IMG/VR virus record: IMGVR_UViG_3300030329_001287
Span: 1 to 23,144 of that record
Origin: a virus
Length of the DNA: 23,144 nucleotides
Direction: 5' to 3' (one strand)
Below the pieces are notes generated by a model that worked only from the letters and a program-made list of their open reading frames with translations, searched no databases and had not been told where the DNA came from. A program made the translations under genes and the position numbers. Positions 141-12,521 of this stretch are shown piece after piece; position 1 is the first letter of the stretch; every line of letters starts with the position of its first letter.

Positions 141-1691
141 ATGGCTTTAAATGATTACGTTCAACTGAGCGAATTGGGGGGTTCTGATGTTCTGGCAACT
201 GGACCAGGTTCTAGTACGAGTAATGTCGATACTGGCGACCTGCGTAGAAAGTATAATTTTGGTGACAGAGTATCAGAGCTAGCGATAGCACAAGACCCTT
301 TCTTTCGTTTCGTTAGTAAAGTAAGTAAAAAACCTACAGACGACCCTTCTTTTAAGTTTACTGAAAAAAGAGGTTCGTACCACAAAAGATATGCATATGT
401 AATGGGATTTGTTAGCAATGGTGCTGATGAATTCGCAGATGCTGAATTAGACCAATCAGATGCTGGAGCAGCAGTTTCAGCTACTGGTCAGAATGTTCAG
501 CTATATATGGCAACTGACTATAAATCTGAAGGAAACCTTCAAAACGTATATGGCAATACTGCCAACGATTGGTCTGTAGGAGCATCAGGAACTTCTCCTA
601 CGTTTTTCCTTCCTGGTCAAATAGTAAAAGTTCCAGTTTCTACAACTGGTGGTGGCGGTGGTGTAACTACTGGATATCACTTAGTTAAAGTTACAAATGT
701 TATAACAGGATTAACTAAAGATAGTAAGGAATGTGCAAGAGTAGATGGAAAAATAATTAAGTTTCATACTGGCGCAAATGAGTTATCATCTTTCCATACT
801 AATAATTTTGGTCCTGGTGGAGCTGCTGGAGATGAAGTTGTGGCTGATGTTTCAATTACAGACCTTGAAACTAGACGTTCATATGTAGTTGGTACAGTTC
901 ATGATGAAGGAAGTGGATATCCTGAAACATGGAAAGACCAACCATATAGTACTCAATATGGTATAACTCAAATCTGGAAAACTTCAATGGCTATGACAAA
1001 TACTGCTCGTGCTACTTCATTAAAATATGAAGGGAATGAGTGGGCTCGTATTTGGAAAGAAAAACTAATTGAGCATAAATGGGATATGGAAGCTTCATTG
1101 TTGTTTGGTTCTCAAAATGAGACATATAGAACAACTCAAGGTGCAGTTGATTATATACTTAATTATGGTAATCAGTTTTCTTTACCTATAGCTAGTAAAA
1201 CATCAGATGATTTCTTAGATGACATGTCTAACTATTTAGACCCAAGATATAATAATAGTGGTGCTACTGTATTTTTTGTTAGTACAGCTGTTTATAATTG
1301 GATGCATAAGTTAGGTGGTTATATTAAGAATACTGCTAATTTAGCTACTGATGGTAATGGTTATGGTTTATTATCTGCTGATTTTGCAATGTCAGGTAAA
1401 AAGCAAATCTTAGGTGTAGATATTACTACATTTAATACACCTTATGGTGATATGAATGTTGCTAGAAATATCCACTTAGATGGCACTAATATTGCAATGT
1501 TAGGTGTTAATATGAAAAACTGTGCATATAGACCATTGATTGGTAACGGATTGAACCGTGATACATCCGTCTACGTAGGGGTTCAAACTTTAGAGAATTC
1601 TGGAGTTGATAGAAGAGTAGACTTAATCTTAACAGAAGCTGGGATGGAATGGTCAATGCCTGAATCTCATGCTATCTGGTTAAACTCTTAA
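141..1691 (+). CDS. Major capsid protein (HK97-fold, SU10-like type)
   Basis: This 516-aa protein is the probable major head subunit. Residues about 34-80 (RRKYNFGDRVSELAIAQDPF, followed by a KPTDDP...F...EKR pattern) match from memory an N-terminal signature of capsid proteins in the SU10-like group common in environmental phages. The region around residues 278-330, with GITQIWKTS, KLIEHKWDME and LLFG, also fits that family. Residues about 120-255 look like an insertion and include a run of five glycines (about 171-175). The ATG has GGAG six bases upstream. It is followed at once by a small decoration-like gene. The family call comes from motifs, not a database search; the capsid role is fairly secure and the subfamily less so. 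Confidence 0.78.
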   Translation: MALNDYVQLSELGGSDVLATGPGSSTSNVDTGDLRRKYNFGDRVSELAIAQDPFFRFVSKVSKKPTDDPSFKFTEKRGSYHKRYAYVMGFVSNGADEFADAELDQSDAGAAVSATGQNVQLYMATDYKSEGNLQNVYGNTANDWSVGASGTSPTFFLPGQIVKVPVSTTGGGGGVTTGYHLVKVTNVITGLTKDSKECARVDGKIIKFHTGANELSSFHTNNFGPGGAAGDEVVADVSITDLETRRSYVVGTVHDEGSGYPETWKDQPYSTQYGITQIWKTSMAMTNTARATSLKYEGNEWARIWKEKLIEHKWDMEASLLFGSQNETYRTTQGAVDYILNYGNQFSLPIASKTSDDFLDDMSNYLDPRYNNSGATVFFVSTAVYNWMHKLGGYIKNTANLATDGNGYGLLSADFAMSGKKQILGVDITTFNTPYGDMNVARNIHLDGTNIAMLGVNMKNCAYRPLIGNGLNRDTSVYVGVQTLENSGVDRRVDLILTEAGMEWSMPESHAIWLNS

Positions 1692-1702: not shown

Positions 1703-2200
1703 ATGAGTGTTAATATACCTTTATATGGGCAAAATAAAGATGGTGGTTTTCTTGGAAATCGTTCTGCTGGAAGCGTTATACAAACTTCTGGCGGAGAAAG
1801 CCTTAGCTTAAGTGCTAGTGATGCAGGTTCTATTGTTATAATCACTGGTGGAGTTAATGGTGCATGTGCTATATCTTTACCTGCTGGAGAAGATGGAATG
1901 ACTTTTGAGTTTTATCTTAAAGCAGCTAATGGTAGTGGGGATTGTGACATTGATGCTAAAGATACAAGCACAAGGCATGACTATTTCTTAGGAATGGTAA
2001 CGCACCATGAAGCTGATGCTGATACAAATACTCCTTTTGCAGCAGCTACAAATGACCAATTAACTTTAGCAGCAAGTAAAGGTGACGTAGGTGATTATAT
2101 GAAAATCGTCTATGGAGCTGGACACTGGTTTCTAACAGGTCATACTGGCGATGCAGATGGTTGGGTTGTAGGTACTGCTTCTGCTAATAATAGTGATTAA
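1703..2200 (+). CDS. Small virion protein, candidate capsid decoration protein
   Basis: This 165-aa protein has no family I can name. It is rich in Gly, Ala, Ser and Asp, has no membrane segment or signal peptide, and alternates short hydrophobic strands, which suggests a compact beta fold. A stretch near residues 48-80 (IITGGVNGACAISLPAGEDG) and a later W-x-V-x-G pattern resemble small structural proteins of tailed phages. It directly follows the capsid gene with an eight-base perfect Shine-Dalgarno match, and the pair is closed off by the hairpin at 2226-2276. Position and predicted high expression favour a decoration or head-stabilising protein; this is inference. Confidence 0.65.
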   Translation: MSVNIPLYGQNKDGGFLGNRSAGSVIQTSGGESLSLSASDAGSIVIITGGVNGACAISLPAGEDGMTFEFYLKAANGSGDCDIDAKDTSTRHDYFLGMVTHHEADADTNTPFAAATNDQLTLAASKGDVGDYMKIVYGAGHWFLTGHTGDADGWVVGTASANNSD

Positions 2201-2230
2201 GTTAGCTTAGTAACTAAATAAAAATGAGTC
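2200..2230 (+). repeat. Leader element, copy 2
   Basis: AGTTAG, eight bases, then CTAAATAAAAATGAGTC. This repeats the capsid leader (106-136) with G replaced by T, which destroys the GGAG ribosome site. AGTTA (2200-2204) can also pair with TAACT (2211-2215). The last bases run into the 5' arm of the adjacent hairpin. It looks like a duplicated capsid leader that no longer serves a start codon. Confidence 0.45.
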
Positions 2231-2276
2231 TCCCCTTTCCTTTTGGGTGTTTCTCCGAGAGGGAGGGGGCAGGCTT
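2226..2276 (+). terminator. Long GU-rich RNA hairpin after the capsid gene pair (terminator or processing site)
   Basis: In the + strand transcript 2232-2247 pairs with 2254-2269: 16 consecutive pairs closing a six-base loop (2248-2253). After a one-base bulge (C2270), 2226-2231 pairs with 2271-2276. Seven of the 22 pairs are G-U. The block is about 60% GC in otherwise AT-rich DNA. Only three T follow, so it is not a textbook intrinsic terminator. T7 has its late terminator just after its capsid gene, which makes a terminator or RNase III-type site plausible here. Confidence 0.6.
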
Positions 2277-2296
2277 TAAGATAAAGGAATTTAAAT

Positions 2297-2776
2297 ATGG
2301 CTTCAACGGTAACAGCCTCAACATTAACCGTAAAGATTACTGAGAGTATTAAATTAAATGGCAAGCAACAAGGTGGAACTAGTAGTATTAATATAGCTTC
2401 TGTAAATGAAATATCTTCAAGAATACTAACTATTACAACTACTGAGGCAGTTATAGCTACATTTAGTTCAGCTGTTGCTTCAGCTGGACATTATGTTGCA
2501 GCTGATGTAAGATATATGAGATTCACTAATCTTGATGATACAAATTTTATCACATTGACATTTAGGAATCAAGATAATGATGAAGTTGCTATTAAGCTTG
2601 ATGCAGGACAATCTTTTATTTGGAATGGAGATAATGCTAATGGTATGTCAGCTGTCTTCAATGCAACTGAAGATGCTGATGCTGCATCTGATACAGCTTT
2701 TGGAAGCTTGACAAATCTTCAAGCAGATGCAAATACTGGTTCATGTGATTTAGAAGTCTTTATAGCGAGTGTTTAA
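2297..2776 (+). CDS. Small virion protein of unknown function, beta-rich
   Basis: This 159-aa protein begins MASTVTASTLTVKITESIKL and contains a strand-rich core (VRYMRFTNLDDTNFITLTF, then KLDAGQSFIW near residues 100-115) ending in DLEVFIAS. Similar small proteins occur in the structural regions of environmental phages, but I know no assigned function. No transmembrane segment, signal peptide or catalytic motif is visible. AAAGGA lies about ten bases before the start, and the gene is the first after the hairpin. Its stop overlaps the next start as TAATG. A minor head or tail component is the likeliest role. Confidence 0.65.
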   Translation: MASTVTASTLTVKITESIKLNGKQQGGTSSINIASVNEISSRILTITTTEAVIATFSSAVASAGHYVAADVRYMRFTNLDDTNFITLTFRNQDNDEVAIKLDAGQSFIWNGDNANGMSAVFNATEDADAASDTAFGSLTNLQADANTGSCDLEVFIASV

Positions 2777-3816
2777 TGGCAACATTTGAAGAAAAAGTAG
2801 AAGGTTTAACAAGCATAACAATAACTAATGCATCGACTCCAACTCAGAATGAATTGTCTGAGATGCTTGTTGATGGTGTAGTAGATGTAGTTAATAAGGT
2901 TACAACATTAAAGCCTGATGAATTATCTAAGTTCACTTTAACTACACATTCAACTGGTTCTGTTGAAAAGAAGGGTAAAATATTATCTGTATTGAGAGAG
3001 CATAATAGTGTTGATATATTAAGAATATGTACTCCTATAAGCCCTTCTATGAGATATGAGGCAACAGATACAGATAGTTTATATTATAGGTCTAAATATA
3101 ATCCTGGTTATTATGAATTAGATGGAAGCATTCATTGTGTACCTGGAGCATCTGGCTCAGGAAATAATGATATAGTAGTAACTCAAGTGAACTATGATAC
3201 TGGTTTAGTTTATAGTGATACTTATGGAGCAGGTAATATTGAAAACTTTCCTGTCGATTATGAATATTTAGTAGTATTGTATGCCTCTGCTATGGCATGT
3301 ATGGCAGCTGCTTCTGGAATACATGGTAGTTTACCTAGTAAGCCAACAGCTCCAACTTCTCCTAATTTCGTAGATTCGGAAACTGTATTACCTAATGTAC
3401 CTCAGTATATAGCTCCTGTTTTAGATTTTAGCATGACAGCTCTTGACTCCAAACTAAATGATGAAGATATAGAGATGTCTGAAAAAGAAATGGAAAAGAT
3501 TGATAAGAGGATGGATAAGTTTAGAGCAGAGCAGGATAACAATCAAAAATCATTTACTAAAGAATTAGAAGTATTCAAAGCTGACTTAGATATGTTAGTT
3601 AAGAATTCAGATAGAGCTACTCAAGTTATGGTAGCTGAATATAAAAGTGAAGTAGAGAAATATCAAATGGATACAGCTCAATACACAGCTTCACTACAAG
3701 AAGAAATGACTGAATACAAATGGTATATAGAACAATATGTAGCATTAATGAATCAGTATAATAGTGGTATTATAGGTCAAAGGCCTAAACAAGCTCAAGA
3801 AGAAGGAGGTGAGTAA
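2776..3816 (+). CDS. Neck/head-tail structural protein with C-terminal coiled coil
   Basis: This is a 346-aa protein in two parts. Residues 1-200 start with helices (NELSEMLVDGVVDVVNKVTT), then strands, a YYELDGSIHCVPG element and ENFPVDYEYLVVLYASAMAC near 155-175. That order resembles gp4/gp11-type connector proteins, weakly. Residues about 225-326 are highly charged with heptad-like spacing and no proline, so they should form a long coiled coil. A proline-rich linker (about 187-215) joins the two. The start is TAATG with only a weak ribosome site, so it is probably coupled to the upstream gene. Alternatives are a scaffold-like or internal head protein. No enzyme motif is seen. Confidence 0.6.
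   Translation: MATFEEKVEGLTSITITNASTPTQNELSEMLVDGVVDVVNKVTTLKPDELSKFTLTTHSTGSVEKKGKILSVLREHNSVDILRICTPISPSMRYEATDTDSLYYRSKYNPGYYELDGSIHCVPGASGSGNNDIVVTQVNYDTGLVYSDTYGAGNIENFPVDYEYLVVLYASAMACMAAASGIHGSLPSKPTAPTSPNFVDSETVLPNVPQYIAPVLDFSMTALDSKLNDEDIEMSEKEMEKIDKRMDKFRAEQDNNQKSFTKELEVFKADLDMLVKNSDRATQVMVAEYKSEVEKYQMDTAQYTASLQEEMTEYKWYIEQYVALMNQYNSGIIGQRPKQAQEEGGE
3803..3812 (+). promoter_or_regulatory. Ten-base perfect Shine-Dalgarno site
   Basis: AAGGAGGTGA is fully complementary to the usual 16S rRNA 3' end and lies inside the last codons of the upstream gene, with GGAGG six bases before the ATG at 3816. It is the longest such match I found in the window and suggests that the downstream family member is made in quantity. 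Confidence 0.65.
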
Positions 3817-4319
3817 TGGCAAATGATGGTATAGCTAATATAAGTGCCTCTATATTAAGTGATATAGCTAAAAGCTCTATTGGTGGTAGTATGAATTATT
3901 CACCGATAGATACTGATAGATGGGTATATACTGAAAGAGTAGTAAGTAATGCTTCTGAGCCATTATTACCAACTAGTCAACCATATGCTGAGCAATATGC
4001 ACATACTGAAGCTCAAAAAACAGTTGCAGCTGGAGATAAATATAGATGGCTAGCTATTAAAAATACAGGAACTAAAGATGGTATTGCATCTACAACAGAA
4101 GGTATTGTTATATCTTTAGATGGGGATGCAGCAGCTTATGATGAAGCAGAGGGTATATTTATAGATGCAGGAGATTTATGGATAGGTAAGTTTCCTTCAG
4201 CAACAACTCAAGCAGATATATATTCAGCGTCTGTAGCTGTTACTAATGGTAGTCCTAGTGGTGCTGGTACCTCAGTAGTGTTATGTCAAATTGCGGCTAT
4301 AATGGAAGATATAGGATAG
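3816..4319 (+). CDS. Virion protein family member A (three paralogs in the window)
   Basis: This 167-aa protein is homologous to the products at 11515-12021 and 12030-12521. The shared core is residues 78-128: WLAIKNTGTKDG, then GIVISLDG, then EGIFIDAGDLWIGKFP. It is followed by SASV (137-140) and an I-A-A-I-x-x-D ending. No signal peptide, membrane segment or catalytic motif is present, and the alternating strands suggest a small beta fold. It sits between the coiled-coil neck protein and the adaptor, and has the strongest ribosome site in the window. An abundant surface or decoration protein fits, but the function is unknown. Relative to copies B and C this member has a YDEAEG stretch where they read NL.DG. 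Confidence 0.7.
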   Translation: MANDGIANISASILSDIAKSSIGGSMNYSPIDTDRWVYTERVVSNASEPLLPTSQPYAEQYAHTEAQKTVAAGDKYRWLAIKNTGTKDGIASTTEGIVISLDGDAAAYDEAEGIFIDAGDLWIGKFPSATTQADIYSASVAVTNGSPSGAGTSVVLCQIAAIMEDIG

Positions 4320-5375: not shown

Positions 5376-5741
5376 ATGGCAAATAGAAGGCAAGGTGGAG
5401 CTCAACATTTCACTGTACAAGAAGCGCAAAATGCTACATTAGGGCAAGTTGGTTCAATGTATAATGATGGAACCTCAGCAATGGTAGCTCCTACAGACCA
5501 CGTATTCGTGGCAATTACATTTATAACAGATACAACTTTTGATGCCTCTGGCGGCTTGATAGCAGTTGATTCAGATAGATTTATTAATACTGAAGCTGCA
5601 TCAAATCCATTATCAGGTAGTTCAGGCGGAGTAGAGTTAGATGCCAGTAATACATTTCCAGCAGGATTGACTATATATGGACGTTGGACTGAAATAGACC
5701 CAGCTAGTGGTTCTGGATTAATTGCATACATAGGTAAGTAA
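5376..5741 (+). CDS. Small virion protein of unknown function
   Basis: This 121-aa protein has no family I recognise. It begins MANRRQGGAQHFTVQEAQNA and continues with short strands separated by Gly, Ser and Ala (HVFVAITFITDTTFDASGG, then TIYGRWTEIDPASGSGLIAY near the end). The pattern, including the W-x-E-I-x-x-x-S-G-x-x-I-A-Y-I-G ending, is like short phage structural proteins found beside tail or fibre genes. It has no membrane segment. AAAGGAG precedes the ATG, which is the first start after the adaptor pair and a small leader hairpin. Its stop overlaps the next start (TAATG), placing it at the head of the adhesin module; it may be a fibre base or a small virion protein. Confidence 0.6.
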   Translation: MANRRQGGAQHFTVQEAQNATLGQVGSMYNDGTSAMVAPTDHVFVAITFITDTTFDASGGLIAVDSDRFINTEAASNPLSGSSGGVELDASNTFPAGLTIYGRWTEIDPASGSGLIAYIGK

Positions 5742-6904
5742 TGGGTCTTGGATTTGGTTTAAGTTTAGCGAAGAGTGGATTAACTACACCTGGAATAGTC
5801 ACAGACAATTTAGTATTAAAGCATAACTATAATGCTAGTGGCAATATACCTGTATCTGATGGTGCAGCGTTTTTTAATGGGACTGCTGATTATATACAAA
5901 TAGCTGAAAAATTTGAGAATAATCTTTTTACTGTAAGTGCTTGGATTAATATGGCAGCAGTAGATACTGAATCTCAAGCAATATTTAGTAATAGGGGTTC
6001 TTCAAGTGAAGGATTTATGTGTTATCTTAATTCAAATGAGAGACCAACTATTAAATTTGAGGGTACTCCTATCACAGGAAATACTGTGTTGTCAGTTAAT
6101 AAATGGTATCATTTAGCATGGACTTATGATAATACTACTTTGAAAATTTACATTGATGGAGTATTGGATAACTCTGGTACGCATACAAGTTCTGATATAG
6201 CAGGAACTGCTAATGCTAGAATAGGTAAAAATGCCTATGATAGTCATCCATATCTTTGGAATGGTCACATATGCAATATGGGTATATGGTCAAAAACATT
6301 AAGTCAAGCTGAAATCAAATCAATCATGTGGAAGAATTATGCAGGATTAACAGATACTGAAAAAACAAGCTTAGTATCATGGTGGAATTTAGATACACCA
6401 ATAACTGAAGATTATAATGCTCTTGGAGAAGGTGATGATTCCCCATCAACAATAGATGGTTTGGTTTTAGATAATCATGATACAACATTTACTGAAGTAA
6501 GTGTTACTAACAGTGATTTTACATCTGGTAGTGGAACGAGTATAACAGGATGGACTAATACAGCTGCTAATAAATGGGAAATATCAGGAAGCACAATGAC
6601 ATCTCCTAATGGAATATCATTAATTTCACAAGATGTTTTGACTGATGATATAGCACATAAGTTAGTAGTAAGAGCAAAAAATACTATACCAGGCTCTACA
6701 GCTAGACTATCAGCATATTTTGGTGCAAATAATTTTGCTATTCATAATTTAACAGATGATTTTCAAGAATATACATTTCATGGATATCAAGATAATGATA
6801 CAACGCTTTTCTTGTATAATCCTACTGGAGCAAGCAGTACTAATGTAACAATAGATTGGGTTAAACTTTATAAATATGATGGTAATGTGGGAGTATTAGT
6901 ATAA
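5741..6904 (+). CDS. LamG-domain tail fibre/adhesin protein
   Basis: This 387-aa protein has a LamG (concanavalin-A-like) domain at residues about 43-200. The signs are FFNGTADYIQIA, FTVSAWINM, a W-Y-H-L-A-W-T-Y-D strand, LKIYIDGVLD, ARIGKN, and the closing GHICNMGIWSKTLSQAEI. Such domains bind sugars and are common in phage receptor-binding proteins. Residues about 257-375 (NSDFTSGSGTSITGWTN to VTIDWVKLYKY) look like a jelly-roll carbohydrate-binding module. The short hydrophobic N-terminus (GLGFGLSLAKSG) may anchor it to the virion; it does not look like a cleaved signal peptide. It is coupled by TAATG to genes on both sides. Host-surface glycan binding is inferred from the domain. Confidence 0.78.
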   Translation: MGLGFGLSLAKSGLTTPGIVTDNLVLKHNYNASGNIPVSDGAAFFNGTADYIQIAEKFENNLFTVSAWINMAAVDTESQAIFSNRGSSSEGFMCYLNSNERPTIKFEGTPITGNTVLSVNKWYHLAWTYDNTTLKIYIDGVLDNSGTHTSSDIAGTANARIGKNAYDSHPYLWNGHICNMGIWSKTLSQAEIKSIMWKNYAGLTDTEKTSLVSWWNLDTPITEDYNALGEGDDSPSTIDGLVLDNHDTTFTEVSVTNSDFTSGSGTSITGWTNTAANKWEISGSTMTSPNGISLISQDVLTDDIAHKLVVRAKNTIPGSTARLSAYFGANNFAIHNLTDDFQEYTFHGYQDNDTTLFLYNPTGASSTNVTIDWVKLYKYDGNVGVLV

Positions 6905-9900
6905 TGCCAGCTACTATACAAACAATAGAAAAACCTTTAAGAGCCAGAGCATGGGATACATCTACATCTACTCAAGTAGTATCACAAAATATGGTTACAA
7001 ATGGAGATTTTGCTTCTAATATAACTGGATGGGATGAAGTTTCTGTAGGAGCAGGAGAAACTGCCCCTCGATTTGATGCAAATGATGGTGTTAGTAGTGG
7101 TGGGTGTTGCGAAATACTTGTTACGGATGGTGGCTATATAGGTATAAAGCAAGATATTACTTTTACGGCTGGAAGAAGATATAGAGTTAGTATTTCAGCA
7201 AAAGCTGCTAGTGGAGATAATGGAAAGCAATTTAGATTTATGGATAATGCGACTGCAACTATTTCACCTTTAGTTGATAGCGGAGACCATATTCATACTT
7301 TAACAGAATCTCATGCTACTTATACTACTGAATGGATAGCAAATGAAAATTCAAATAGAATTAGTATAGTAAGGCAAAGTACTGGAACATGGGAATTCTT
7401 TGTAGATAATATAGAGATTGTTGAGATAGCATCCTTAGGGAATAACAACCATGGGCAAATATACTCAGGTAGAGCATTAGAGTTTGATGGTGTTACTGAT
7501 TATATATCAGTTAATGGAGGTAATGTATTAACTCTTGTAGATTATAGTGCTGGCTCTACTAATGCTGATAGAGCTTGGACTGTAGCTGTCTCTTTTAGAT
7601 TTGATGCAGCAGGCTCTACACATCAACATATACTTGGGTACGGAACATCTAATTCTATAGGTTATCTTTCTGTAACTTCAAATGAGAAATTTGGCTTATG
7701 GAATATGAAATCTAACCCAGATGATGCTTTTATTGAAGCAAGTACTGTTTTAAATATTAATACTTGGTATAGAGGAGTTGCAGTATTTGATGGAGATGAA
7801 ACTGTTAGATTATATGTTAATGGAGTTCAAGATGGAACTGGCACTATAAATACTGCTGGTGCTTATGCAGATTTAGCATTTAAATGGATTGGTGATTGGG
7901 ACCCTGCTCATGCAACAAGAAGACAATTCCCTGGAGCATTATCAGACTTACAATGTTGGAAAGGTGCCTGGACTGCCTCTGATGTTTTATTCGACTATCA
8001 AAACCCTGAACAATTAGCATTAAATAATAGTGGTACATCTCTTACTGAATCTAATTTAAAACTATGGTATCCAATGAATGATGGTCATAGAGGCAATCAA
8101 TCATATATACTTGATGCATCTAATACTGGATTAGGTGATAATCTTGTTACAGACCCAGGATGTAATGCTACTTTAGTTGCAGGTGATAGTCAAGAATTAG
8201 GATGGTCAATTGGAGCATCTGGTGATAGTGTTATGGCGAATGGAGTACTAACATTAAAAGGTTCTGGTGGTAATTCGTATATTGGGCAAAGTGCTATACT
8301 TACTGTTGGAGTTACTTATAAAATAGTTTTTGATGCGACAGTTAGAGCAGGTGAGGGAAAAATAGAAAAGACTGGTGGTGGATTAATGTATAGTATTACT
8401 TCTAGTGGTTCTCATACTGTATATTGGACTGCAGATTCTACTGACCTTAAATTTAATAGAGTTGATACTGCATGCGATATGGATATTGACAATGTTTATT
8501 GTTATCCAGTCAACGATAAAAACCATGGAACAACTGTATTTTATGGTGATGAGCTGATAAGTGATGTTAATAATAGAACTTTTGCATCGTCAAGTAATTG
8601 GGATGGTTCTAATGTGAATACATCTGATGATACTAATGATTTTGTTGAATTTAGTGCAGCTGCTTCTAGTGGAGCAGATGAATCAACAGCATTAACAGCT
8701 TATGATGGGACAACTGTCACTTTTGCAGATAACTATTTAAAAGTTAGGTCAGATAGTGATGGCTCAAATAATCAATATTGCTTTTTAGATGGTGGTGGTA
8801 GTAGTGGTAGTGAGAAATGGGAAGGTTCAATGGTGGCAGGTAGAAGATATAGATTGTCTTATGCTATTCAAGTAACAGCTCGTACTAGTGGAAGTATAAG
8901 GGTAGGAATGTCAAATGATGATGCAGTACAAGCACTTTCAGACTTAACTGTGTATAATGAATATGATGCTGTTCATACAAATGCTACAACTGGTTACGTA
9001 GATTTTACATATTCAACTGCAGACCATGAAAGAATTTCTATAATGACTCCAATAAATAGCGTTGTAACTGCATATTTTGATAACTTTAGTATTAAAGAAA
9101 TAGGTACAGCTACAGGCTGGACAGATGCAGACCAACAATTAACTATACCTCAAACAGCATTACAGTCTTATAATCAGTTAATGTGGTTTGATGGAACAGC
9201 TGATTGTGTGCAAACTTCTCCATCAGGGTCTATTTGGAATGCTAGTGGCAGTTATGGTGATTGGAATAGTGTAAGTTGTTGGGTTTATCAAAATGAAGGT
9301 CAAACTTCTGGAGATTATTGGTCTATAGAAAATGTAATGCCAGCTCTATACTTTCAATCTAATAGTACAAATTATTGGATTGGGTATAATACAGGTAATG
9401 GAGACGTATTTGGAATAGAAACTGCTAAAACTAATATAGATGGTAAATGGCATCATTGGGTTATGAATTGGAAAAGAAATAATAATTCTGCTGATACAGC
9501 TATTAGTGCAAGTGATGTAGAGTTATTTTGGAATGGCGAGAAGCAAACTTTAGCTTATCATACACCAACAACAGATAGTAATCCAGTTAGTCATGCTTCT
9601 GATGCTGATATTAATTTTATGTGCAATTCAGCTGCAAATGCACAATTTGTAAATGGTTCTATTACAGAGATATCTACTTGGACAGACCAATTAACTCTAG
9701 CTGAGGTAGAAGAATTATATAATGATGGTAAAGCATTAGATGCACTTACTCATTCAAATGTTTCTAACTTAACAGCATATTGGAGAAATAATGGATTAGC
9801 TACTTGGACACAATTAAAGGGTAGTAATGGTGGAAGTCCTTCTCCTACAAGTGGTGCTGAAACAATGCTAATCACAGCAGGTGTAGATGCATCAAGAGAT

Positions 9901-10578
9901 TCTCAAGGGTTTATAATGAATAGACAGAGGAATACTAGTAGTTTGAACTTACCTGCTAATGATGGGGCCGAAGATGTTAGAATAGATACTGCTTCTGGTG
10001 CTTCACCAGGTGATAATATTAATTTTGTTTCAAATGCATTTTCATTTTCTTGTTGGGTTAAGCTTCGTTATGCTACTGGGTCTGCTCAAATTGTATTTGA
10101 TAGAGGAGATGGAACTGATGGATTCTTATTGAAAGCTTCAGCTACTGGTATCCCTGTATTTGTTACAGAAAAAGATAATACAGAGACATCATCAACTGCT
10201 TCAGGTAGTAATGGAGGATTATCAAGTGGCGTTATGTCTTTTGACACTTGGTATTTTATATGTGGAACTCATGAAGGTTTAGCCTCAAGTGCAGACCAAT
10301 ATCTCTATGTTGGATGTCCGTCTGCTACAGATTCATCTTTATATTGCGTAGCTCTCCAAGCAAATGGTATTATTATGGACACAAGTGCAGCTGATTTAAG
10401 AATAGGGAGAAGGTATAGTAATACTCTTCCATTTAATGGGGCAATAGATGATTTGATTTTTTATGATAAAGAATTAACTGCATTTGAGTCCGATGGCTCA
10501 GTTGCAGAATCAGGAGATAAAATAACGAGTGGAGAAGTATTAAGAAATTATAACGCAGGGAAAAGGAGTCATAGATAA
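6904..10578 (+). CDS. Large multidomain LamG adhesin/tail fibre
   Basis: This 1224-aa protein is built of repeated sugar-binding-type modules. Domains in order are: jelly-roll-like 29-172 (NMVTNGDF to FFVDNIEIVEI); LamG 190-370 (LEFDGVTDYISV, LYVNGVQDG, GALSDLQCWKG); jelly-roll-like 412-535 (DNLVTDPGC to MDIDNVYCYPV); jelly-roll-like 548-735 (GDELISDVNN to YFDNFSIKEIG); LamG 757-945 (LMWFDGTADCV, WHHWVMNWKR, GSITEISTWTDQLTLAEVEE); and LamG 1010-1224 (FSFSCWVKL, FNGAIDDLIFYDKEL, YNAGKRSHR). The repeated start N-L-V-T-(N/D) and end D-N-(I/V/F) show that the jelly-roll units are related. GGGAG lies about ten bases before the start. The role is host or surface polysaccharide recognition, inferred from the domains. 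No hydrolase motif is seen. Confidence 0.78.
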   Translation: MPATIQTIEKPLRARAWDTSTSTQVVSQNMVTNGDFASNITGWDEVSVGAGETAPRFDANDGVSSGGCCEILVTDGGYIGIKQDITFTAGRRYRVSISAKAASGDNGKQFRFMDNATATISPLVDSGDHIHTLTESHATYTTEWIANENSNRISIVRQSTGTWEFFVDNIEIVEIASLGNNNHGQIYSGRALEFDGVTDYISVNGGNVLTLVDYSAGSTNADRAWTVAVSFRFDAAGSTHQHILGYGTSNSIGYLSVTSNEKFGLWNMKSNPDDAFIEASTVLNINTWYRGVAVFDGDETVRLYVNGVQDGTGTINTAGAYADLAFKWIGDWDPAHATRRQFPGALSDLQCWKGAWTASDVLFDYQNPEQLALNNSGTSLTESNLKLWYPMNDGHRGNQSYILDASNTGLGDNLVTDPGCNATLVAGDSQELGWSIGASGDSVMANGVLTLKGSGGNSYIGQSAILTVGVTYKIVFDATVRAGEGKIEKTGGGLMYSITSSGSHTVYWTADSTDLKFNRVDTACDMDIDNVYCYPVNDKNHGTTVFYGDELISDVNNRTFASSSNWDGSNVNTSDDTNDFVEFSAAASSGADESTALTAYDGTTVTFADNYLKVRSDSDGSNNQYCFLDGGGSSGSEKWEGSMVAGRRYRLSYAIQVTARTSGSIRVGMSNDDAVQALSDLTVYNEYDAVHTNATTGYVDFTYSTADHERISIMTPINSVVTAYFDNFSIKEIGTATGWTDADQQLTIPQTALQSYNQLMWFDGTADCVQTSPSGSIWNASGSYGDWNSVSCWVYQNEGQTSGDYWSIENVMPALYFQSNSTNYWIGYNTGNGDVFGIETAKTNIDGKWHHWVMNWKRNNNSADTAISASDVELFWNGEKQTLAYHTPTTDSNPVSHASDADINFMCNSAANAQFVNGSITEISTWTDQLTLAEVEELYNDGKALDALTHSNVSNLTAYWRNNGLATWTQLKGSNGGSPSPTSGAETMLITAGVDASRDSQGFIMNRQRNTSSLNLPANDGAEDVRIDTASGASPGDNINFVSNAFSFSCWVKLRYATGSAQIVFDRGDGTDGFLLKASATGIPVFVTEKDNTETSSTASGSNGGLSSGVMSFDTWYFICGTHEGLASSADQYLYVGCPSATDSSLYCVALQANGIIMDTSAADLRIGRRYSNTLPFNGAIDDLIFYDKELTAFESDGSVAESGDKITSGEVLRNYNAGKRSHR

Positions 10579-11514: not shown

Positions 11515-12021
11515 ATGGCAGATGCAGCCACAATATCAATGAGTGCAACTTTATTACCAGATGAAGTACAGAAGACATTAACAGGGTTAACTGCTACATT
11601 TACTCCTGCAGATGCTAATGATAAATGGTTTTATGGACTTGTTAATGTTACTAATTCTAGTGCAGATTTAATAGCTGGTAATTTTCTTTCTACTGCTGCT
11701 GGTATAAATACTGGCTCATCTTCTCCAGCTATAACTACTTCTGACTTAGTAAAGTTTTTATTTATAAAGAATACAGGAACTGCTGATGGTTCTACTGCAT
11801 CAACAGAAAGTATAGTTATATGCTTAGATGGTGGAACAGCAGCTCATAATTTAGCTGATGGTATTGAGATAGGAGCAGGTGAAGCATGGTATGCTAAATT
11901 ACCTAATACTACCGTTGGAAACTTACATGCTGTTTCAGTTGATAGTAATATGTCTGGTAGTGGTAGTGCTGGCGAAGCAAATGTGCAGTGTATAATAGCT
12001 GCAATAATAGATGATGTATAG
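11515..12021 (+). CDS. Virion protein family member B (three paralogs in the window)
   Basis: This 168-aa protein is homologous to the one at 3816-4319 and to the next gene. The shared core is residues 81-130: FLFIKNTGTADG, then TESIVICLDGGTAA, NLADGIEIGAGEAWYAKLP, followed by LHAVSV (137-142) and IIAAIIDDV at the end. It has no membrane segment or enzyme motif. AAAGGA lies about seven bases before the start. It follows the lysozyme gene, an unusual place for a structural protein, and is in tandem with copy C, suggesting a local duplication after an older split from copy A. Decoration or fibre-associated roles are possible. Confidence 0.7.
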   Translation: MADAATISMSATLLPDEVQKTLTGLTATFTPADANDKWFYGLVNVTNSSADLIAGNFLSTAAGINTGSSSPAITTSDLVKFLFIKNTGTADGSTASTESIVICLDGGTAAHNLADGIEIGAGEAWYAKLPNTTVGNLHAVSVDSNMSGSGSAGEANVQCIIAAIIDDV

Positions 12022-12029
12022 GAGTATGT

Positions 12030-12521
12030 ATGGCAAATGATGCTAAATATAAATCAAGAGCTTCAGTCTTTTCAGATGAGATAAAAGCATCTATGAGTGG
12101 TAAGTGCGACTTTAATGTTGAAGGGGCTACTGGGCATTATTGGTTATATGCATCTAAATTAGTTTCAAATAGTAGTGGAGACTTATTAAGCACAGCTAAT
12201 GACTTATTAGGCTCAGGTACGGCTCTTGCTACTAATGATAAGATTCTTTGGATAGCTATAAAGAATACTTCTACCACAGCTACAGATGGAGTAGTTATAT
12301 GTTTAGATGCAGGCACTGCTGCTTGGAATCTTGGTGATGGAATAGCAATTGGAGCAGGTGAAATGATTTGCTTAAAGGTGCCTCAATGCACCGTTGCTGA
12401 TTTACATGCTATATCAGTTACTATGAGTAAAGAAGCTGGAGTTCCTTCTACTACACATGCAGGTGGTGTTACTGTTCAAGTAGCTGCAGTAATAAATGAT
12501 GTATCAGAAGGTGGAGGTTAA
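12030..12521 (+). CDS. Virion protein family member C (three paralogs in the window)
   Basis: This 163-aa protein is the third copy of the family. The matching blocks are LWIAIKNTSTTATDG (residues 73-87), VVICLDAGTAAWNLGDGIAI (88-107), GAGEMICLKVP (108-118), LHAISV (125-130) and VAAVINDV (151-158). Its N-terminus, MANDAKYKSRASVFSDEIKA, aligns with copy A (MANDGIANISASILSDIAKS) better than with copy B, so the three did not arise by simple tandem doubling of one gene. GGAG overlaps the upstream stop and lies five bases before the ATG. The function is unknown; an abundant structural protein is the best guess. Confidence 0.7.
   Translation: MANDAKYKSRASVFSDEIKASMSGKCDFNVEGATGHYWLYASKLVSNSSGDLLSTANDLLGSGTALATNDKILWIAIKNTSTTATDGVVICLDAGTAAWNLGDGIAIGAGEMICLKVPQCTVADLHAISVTMSKEAGVPSTTHAGGVTVQVAAVINDVSEGGG

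Follow-up and report, generated by a model that had tools for sequence, protein, structure and literature searches.

A phage needs capsid subunits by the hundred but connector subunits only in small number, and both come from the same late transcript. The locus described here raises the question of what an RNA hairpin does at the border between the capsid genes and the genes that follow them. In the window, by which we mean the whole 23,144-nt stretch of viral DNA that was analysed, a major capsid protein gene and a small decoration-like gene are followed by a 96-nt intergenic gap (2201-2296), and the hairpin lies entirely inside this gap (Table 1). A preliminary description of the DNA had noted a strand-specific hairpin within a GC island, 3′ of the capsid gene pair. 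Its site was confirmed as the gap between gene 1703-2200 and gene 2297-2776, and the hairpin has a GC content of 59% compared with 35% window-wide.

Table 1. Genes and RNA features around the intergenic hairpin, in window coordinates.
Feature	Position	Strand	Remarks
Major capsid protein gene	141..1691	+	Pfam SU10_MCP, PHROG 1328
Small capsid-associated (decoration-like) gene, 'MYGQNK' family	1703..2200	+	Very strong Shine-Dalgarno sequence; role suggested by position
A/U-rich spacer, stop codon to hairpin	2201..2225	+	25 nt
RNA hairpin	2226..2276	+	22 pairs (7 G-U), bulge C2270; from folding and covariation in relatives
Apical pyrimidine tract UUUCUCC	2250..2256	+	Conserved as UUCYYUYC-like runs across unrelated stems
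Spacer, hairpin to start codon	2277..2296	+	20 nt, no U-tract
Modest Shine-Dalgarno sequence AAAGGA	2283-2288	+	Within spacer 2277..2296
Gene directly after the hairpin, family F5	2297..2776	+	Seen after type-A hairpins
Family F1 gene (MATFE...)	2776..3816	+	Usual first post-hairpin gene in relatives

By its position only, the F1 gene is a putative connector or adaptor gene. Elsewhere in the window, three related small genes (3816-4319, 11515-12021 and 12030-12521) share DNA stretches that are ~69-73% identical (4055-4196, 11763-11904 and 12269-12362). Two adjacent genes, 5741-6904 and 6904-10578, carry Laminin_G_3/ConA-like lectin domains and probably encode receptor-binding or fibre proteins.

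A strand-specific fold after the capsid genes

RNAfold of positions 2226-2276 reproduced exactly the pairing that had been proposed, with 2226-2231 pairing with 2271-2276 and 2232-2247 with 2254-2269 around a single bulge at 2270. When folded in a 400-nt context, 21 of the 22 pairs have a probability of at least 0.8 and the innermost G-U pair has a probability of 0.59. The 75-nt hairpin stretch folds at −33.2 kcal/mol, compared with −20.2 ± 3.0 kcal/mol for 200 dinucleotide shuffles (z −4.3), none of which was as stable. The reverse complement reaches −12.5 kcal/mol and is not below its shuffles (z +1.0), so the claim of strand specificity also held. Scanning both strands in 60-nt pieces placed the hairpin as the strongest fold of the whole window, at −33.2 against −21.7 kcal/mol for the runner-up, a lead of 11 kcal/mol (0.1 percentile, −20.7). 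The shuffles, this window-wide scan and the relatives described below rule out a chance fold.

A duplex of this kind might be cut by an RNase III-type enzyme, which would split the capsid mRNA from the downstream mRNA. The 22 pairs in the window correspond to about two helical turns and similar helices are found in relatives; moreover, a helix of ~16-22 pairs directly 5′ of a ribosome-binding site is the layout of RNase III sites such as those between T7 late and early genes, and the folding is strand-specific. However, the enzyme needs no conserved pyrimidine loop, and we give this role a small chance. It would be compatible both with a boundary between two parts of the message and with a control element in the leader of the next gene, which are weighed below.

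Compensatory changes in the stem

The preliminary description held that selection acts on the + strand transcript, and covariation was looked for in homologous phages 3′ of the capsid gene. Compensatory pairing is present there. In nine copies of type A, the hairpin type of the window, 98.2% of cells are paired, compared with 94.8% after shuffling and 38-66% in slid registers. Alignment A1, built by MAFFT without regard to structure from 25 divergent copies of types A-E, has 91.9% of cells paired against 76.8% when shuffled, and its covariation score is 0.63 against 0.31 (0/500 shuffles as high; best slid register, 0.29). Double-sided changes occur in 11 of the 12 basal pairs of A1. A covariance model made from type A only recovers types B, C and E in relatives, at the correct place and on the correct strand, and scores the type-A copies at 58-82 bits when the + strand is read versus 15-28 for the other. 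The lower stem CUGCC / GGURGG, including its G-U pair, is kept in most copies of types A, B, C and E; the window hairpin deviates from it at its bulge. The hairpin is thus a genuine RNA element of the + strand that is under selection.

The same site in related phages

Among characterised phages the capsid protein has one distant relative only, at 24.5% identity. Capsid relatives among viral contigs yielded 80 loci that were kept, and scans with two relatives added more; one of these, used as query, hit no fewer than 599 related stretches on IMG/VR contigs. Removing duplicates left 127 distinct capsid genes, and 89 distinct junctions with the following gene were located. A hairpin below −20 kcal/mol was found in 78 of these 89 when the 150 nt before the next gene were searched, and in 83 the + strand folds more stably than the other (medians −28.1 and −20.7 kcal/mol). 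A strong hairpin is missing from those 150 nt in the other 11, with L011 and L063 carrying theirs further upstream. Nearly all loci share the same gene order, which runs from the capsid gene through one to three small 'MYGQNK' genes and the hairpin gap, ~50-130 nt long, to F5 or F1. No comparable hairpins were found in the other gaps of these loci.

The element occurs once per genome. The type-A covariance model, run on whole contigs, finds one copy per contig on a single strand, all other rows being weak and at chance level. A 19-nt probe from the type-B apex matched 12 stretches of the viral collection, once each, and at least 11 of these are contigs already known through their capsid gene. 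A repeated promoter-like or boundary element is excluded by the single copy, and an integron-like folded recombination site can be dismissed by reasoning from the single copy and the RNA-type G-U bias. All 4227 families of Rfam 15 gave no match above the gathering cut-off in the window or in 19 relatives, and sub-threshold matches were weak and at chance level; a known RNA family was dismissed on this ground. Searches of open-access papers, a set from which many are missing, turned up no account of this hairpin family.

Several other observations were made among these contigs. Among genome contigs, the search for a host gave a single match, to a contig of 9.4 kb from the bin of a Flavobacteriales MAG; this was set aside as too weak for a host assignment. 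Contig G004 (IMGVR_UViG_3300030451_002683, 104488 bases) carries near-identical sequences at 41644 and 97853, ~56 kb apart on one strand; this distance is close to the 50-57 kb size of several relatives, and the contig may be two related genomes joined in assembly. In contig G011, the protein encoded at L207:7628-18331 (− strand), within a stretch of structural genes, is 3567 aa long and carries an FtsK-gamma domain (E 5.5e-25). Because a relative encodes this domain, a KOPS/FtsK-gamma site in the G-rich arm was considered, and was rejected since GGGNAGGG occurs neither in the window nor in contig G011.

A conserved pyrimidine tip

Within the hairpin, conservation is highest in the apical pyrimidine tract. 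Stems vary freely between types and the tip stays, reading UUGGUUGUUUCUCCAA in type A, GGGAUUCUUCUCUCCC in B, GGAYAUUCUCUCCCC in C, GGUGAGCUUCCCCUCCC in D, GAUUCUCUUCUCC in E and UUUUUGCUUCCUUUC in F. Within their apical 26 nt, 47 of 49 main-type hairpins have six or more pyrimidines in a row (median run 10), compared with 13% of 534 other strong hairpins from the same loci (median 4). Likewise, UCC is present in 45 of the 49 and in 20% of the controls. In some lineages the pyrimidine tip is absent, and the site is occupied by a hairpin with a UUCG cap or of the G-run/C-run kind. Since these lineages keep other stable hairpins, what the site seems to need is a stable hairpin in itself.

Pairing of the tip with Shine-Dalgarno sequences was rejected. 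A pseudoknot with the hairpin's own downstream Shine-Dalgarno sequence would have to span a 16-22 bp stem with too short a linker, and such a sequence is missing at that place from lineages such as L028, L265 and L064. For the Shine-Dalgarno sequence of the decoration gene, the sites are uniformly strong, the loops differ and there is no sign of co-variation.

Other lineages (L031:5083-5121, L048, L036, L073, L318 and L336-L354) share a second RNA element, likewise conserved, with the sequence AAUCUGAARUUCGUGAGGUAAUAGCACGAUAUAARGAUU. It sits between the stop codon of the decoration gene and the strong hairpin, and is absent from the window. Its 5-bp stem is paired in 100% of cells and shows compensatory changes (covariation 0.50 compared with 0.18 shuffled), its UAAUA loop is invariant, and it matches once per stretch in the viral collection. 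In the same region, L338, L341, L350, L351 and L354 have long hairpins with loops such as UUUUUCCUCCUUUUUU, which contain the anti-Shine-Dalgarno core CCUCC.

Expression signals on either side of the hairpin

Shine-Dalgarno strength, taken as the energy of the duplex with ACCUCCUUU, has a median of −11.8 kcal/mol before the hairpin compared with −5.7 kcal/mol after it; in the window the values are −12.4 and −5.7 kcal/mol. By this proxy for translation the upstream gene has the stronger sequence in 74 of 79 junctions; as the loci are related, the junctions do not count as independent events. In type F/G junctions (e.g. L028, L265, L064) the post-hairpin gene has no recognisable Shine-Dalgarno sequence, and the capsid and decoration genes have strong ones.

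No U-tract follows the stem in types A-D, which have 0-3 U in the next 8 nt (1-2 in type A; the window reads UAAGAUAAAG), and a consensus terminator scan found none at 2226-2290. An intrinsic (Rho-independent) terminator is therefore rejected. A partial terminator that depends on Rho or a phage factor, positioned like T7 T-phi after gene 10, would agree with a site that follows the capsid genes, and in a few type F relatives 4-6 of the 8 nt that follow the stem are U, so that some lineages may terminate here. However, the lack of a U-tract in the window and in types A-D counts against it, as does the 96-nt gap, in which ~45 unpaired nt leave little space for a rut site. Large readthrough would also be needed, since no separate promoter fits in front of the downstream structural genes. 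We consider such a terminator improbable.

Instead, a stable hairpin without a U-tract between co-directional adjacent genes, together with translation signals that fall across it, points to protection from decay. Of the three roles that the preliminary description had proposed, a 3′ protective or boundary hairpin fits best, given the missing U-tract and the Shine-Dalgarno step-down. Our favoured, still tentative reading is a cis-acting mRNA-boundary element between two expression levels, decay-protective and with a tip that is probably bound by a factor; we would put it a little below an even chance. Several points speak against it. A pure exonuclease block needs no conserved loop, in 11 of 89 junctions the 150-nt search met no strong hairpin, the spacing to the start codon is tight, and, as discussed next, hairpin similarity follows the downstream gene and not the adjacent upstream one.

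Co-inheritance and recombination

The partial rank correlation of hairpin similarity is 0.33 with capsid lineage, 0.15 with downstream sequence and −0.04 with the adjacent upstream small gene. Type A hairpins precede F5, a further point against a boundary that serves the upstream genes. In relatives the hairpin mostly ends 10-22 nt before the next start codon, and mostly begins 5-25 nt after the preceding stop codon (types A, C and D), or more where the second element is inserted.

Because the hairpin stands so close to the start codon and is inherited together with the sequence downstream, a control element in the 5′ leader of the next gene is a serious alternative and the main rival of a protective boundary, although we hold it to be unlikely on balance. 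Here the hairpin would tune translation or 5′ stability from a base lying just beyond the 30S footprint, and the conserved single-stranded pyrimidine tip would be a standby docking site for ribosomal protein S1 or the target of a phage protein in autogenous repression. The pairing of type A with F5 agrees with this. However, the next gene changes with hairpin type (F5 or several F1 subfamilies) and the site stays constant, the hairpin leaves the Shine-Dalgarno sequence unoccluded, and some lineages do without the pyrimidine tip.

The hairpin also coincides with exchange between phages. L209 (NHFY01000002.1) is a natural recombinant that changes parent within or beside the hairpin, being 97-100% identical to L002 up to it and 86-99% identical to L018 beyond; other contig pairs break there too. 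The hairpin might then serve as a recombination joint, in which a short stretch of conserved sequence marks the border where capsid/decoration modules are swapped, and one genome of the group does encode Sak4-like annealing and RusA-like proteins. Selection for DNA homology, however, cannot yield RNA-type covariation with G-U intermediates in many unrelated stems. The breakpoints are probably a by-product, and we regard a joint as very improbable.

Discussion

In our favoured reading, a protective boundary, the hairpin probably marks a change in stability or expression along one long message. A single late polycistronic transcript would span the capsid and decoration genes and those downstream. 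Endonucleases would cut its poorly translated downstream part, the hairpin would halt 3′-to-5′ exonucleases after such cuts, and the capsid part would outlive the rest, giving more capsid than connector protein. As a second layer of control, a trans-acting factor from phage or host may bind the pyrimidine tip. A bound factor is suggested because a protective role alone leaves the conserved tip unexplained. It is possible, if doubtful, that the hairpins form a new family of mRNA control elements in a large group of uncultivated phages with SU10-type capsids, in which a dedicated RNA-binding factor reads the tip of the one hairpin and sets the capsid:connector ratio; lineages would then have exchanged one kind of hairpin for another (pyrimidine tip, UUCG cap, G-run/C-run or the second covarying element) and kept its place.

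What makes the locus worth attention is that an RNA structure under selection, kept at one genome position across the group, sits precisely where Shine-Dalgarno sequences turn from strong to weak. A specific binding factor is predicted from the conserved tip, and the loci gathered here provide alignments on which a model of a new RNA family can be trained. The hairpin family appears to be new as an element, whereas intercistronic boundary hairpins are already known.

T7 has RNase III sites at its late-gene borders and the terminator T-phi, with a U-tract, after capsid gene 10. The hairpin described here resembles both in lying at a late-gene border, past the capsid gene and just 5′ of a ribosome-binding site. 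It differs from T-phi in having no U-tract, and from both in its conserved loop. The mobile PeSL cassettes of T4-type phages combine a promoter with a stem-loop and are repeated within one genome. Like them, our element is a stem-loop at gene borders of exchanged modules; unlike them, it is found once per contig, and the 10-22 nt to the start codon leave no space for a promoter.

The L17 downstream element is a structured 3′-UTR/downstream RNA motif from comparative genomics (PMC2864571), and it shares with our hairpin a covarying RNA structure 3′ of an abundant structural gene. The hairpin differs from motifs of this kind in matching no Rfam family. Decay-protective hairpins that lie between cistrons and have no U-tract are known from E. 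coli, including malE-malF (Dar and Sorek, 2018, PMC5927463), and an intercistronic decay-protective hairpin of the Rhodobacter puf operon is cited in PMC6238624. Our hairpin, which we describe from sequence, differs from these in its phage late operon, its family of covarying stems and its conserved pyrimidine tip. It resembles them in being stable and in lying between co-transcribed genes without a U-tract, and perhaps also in following the more translated gene, if Shine-Dalgarno strength is taken as a proxy.
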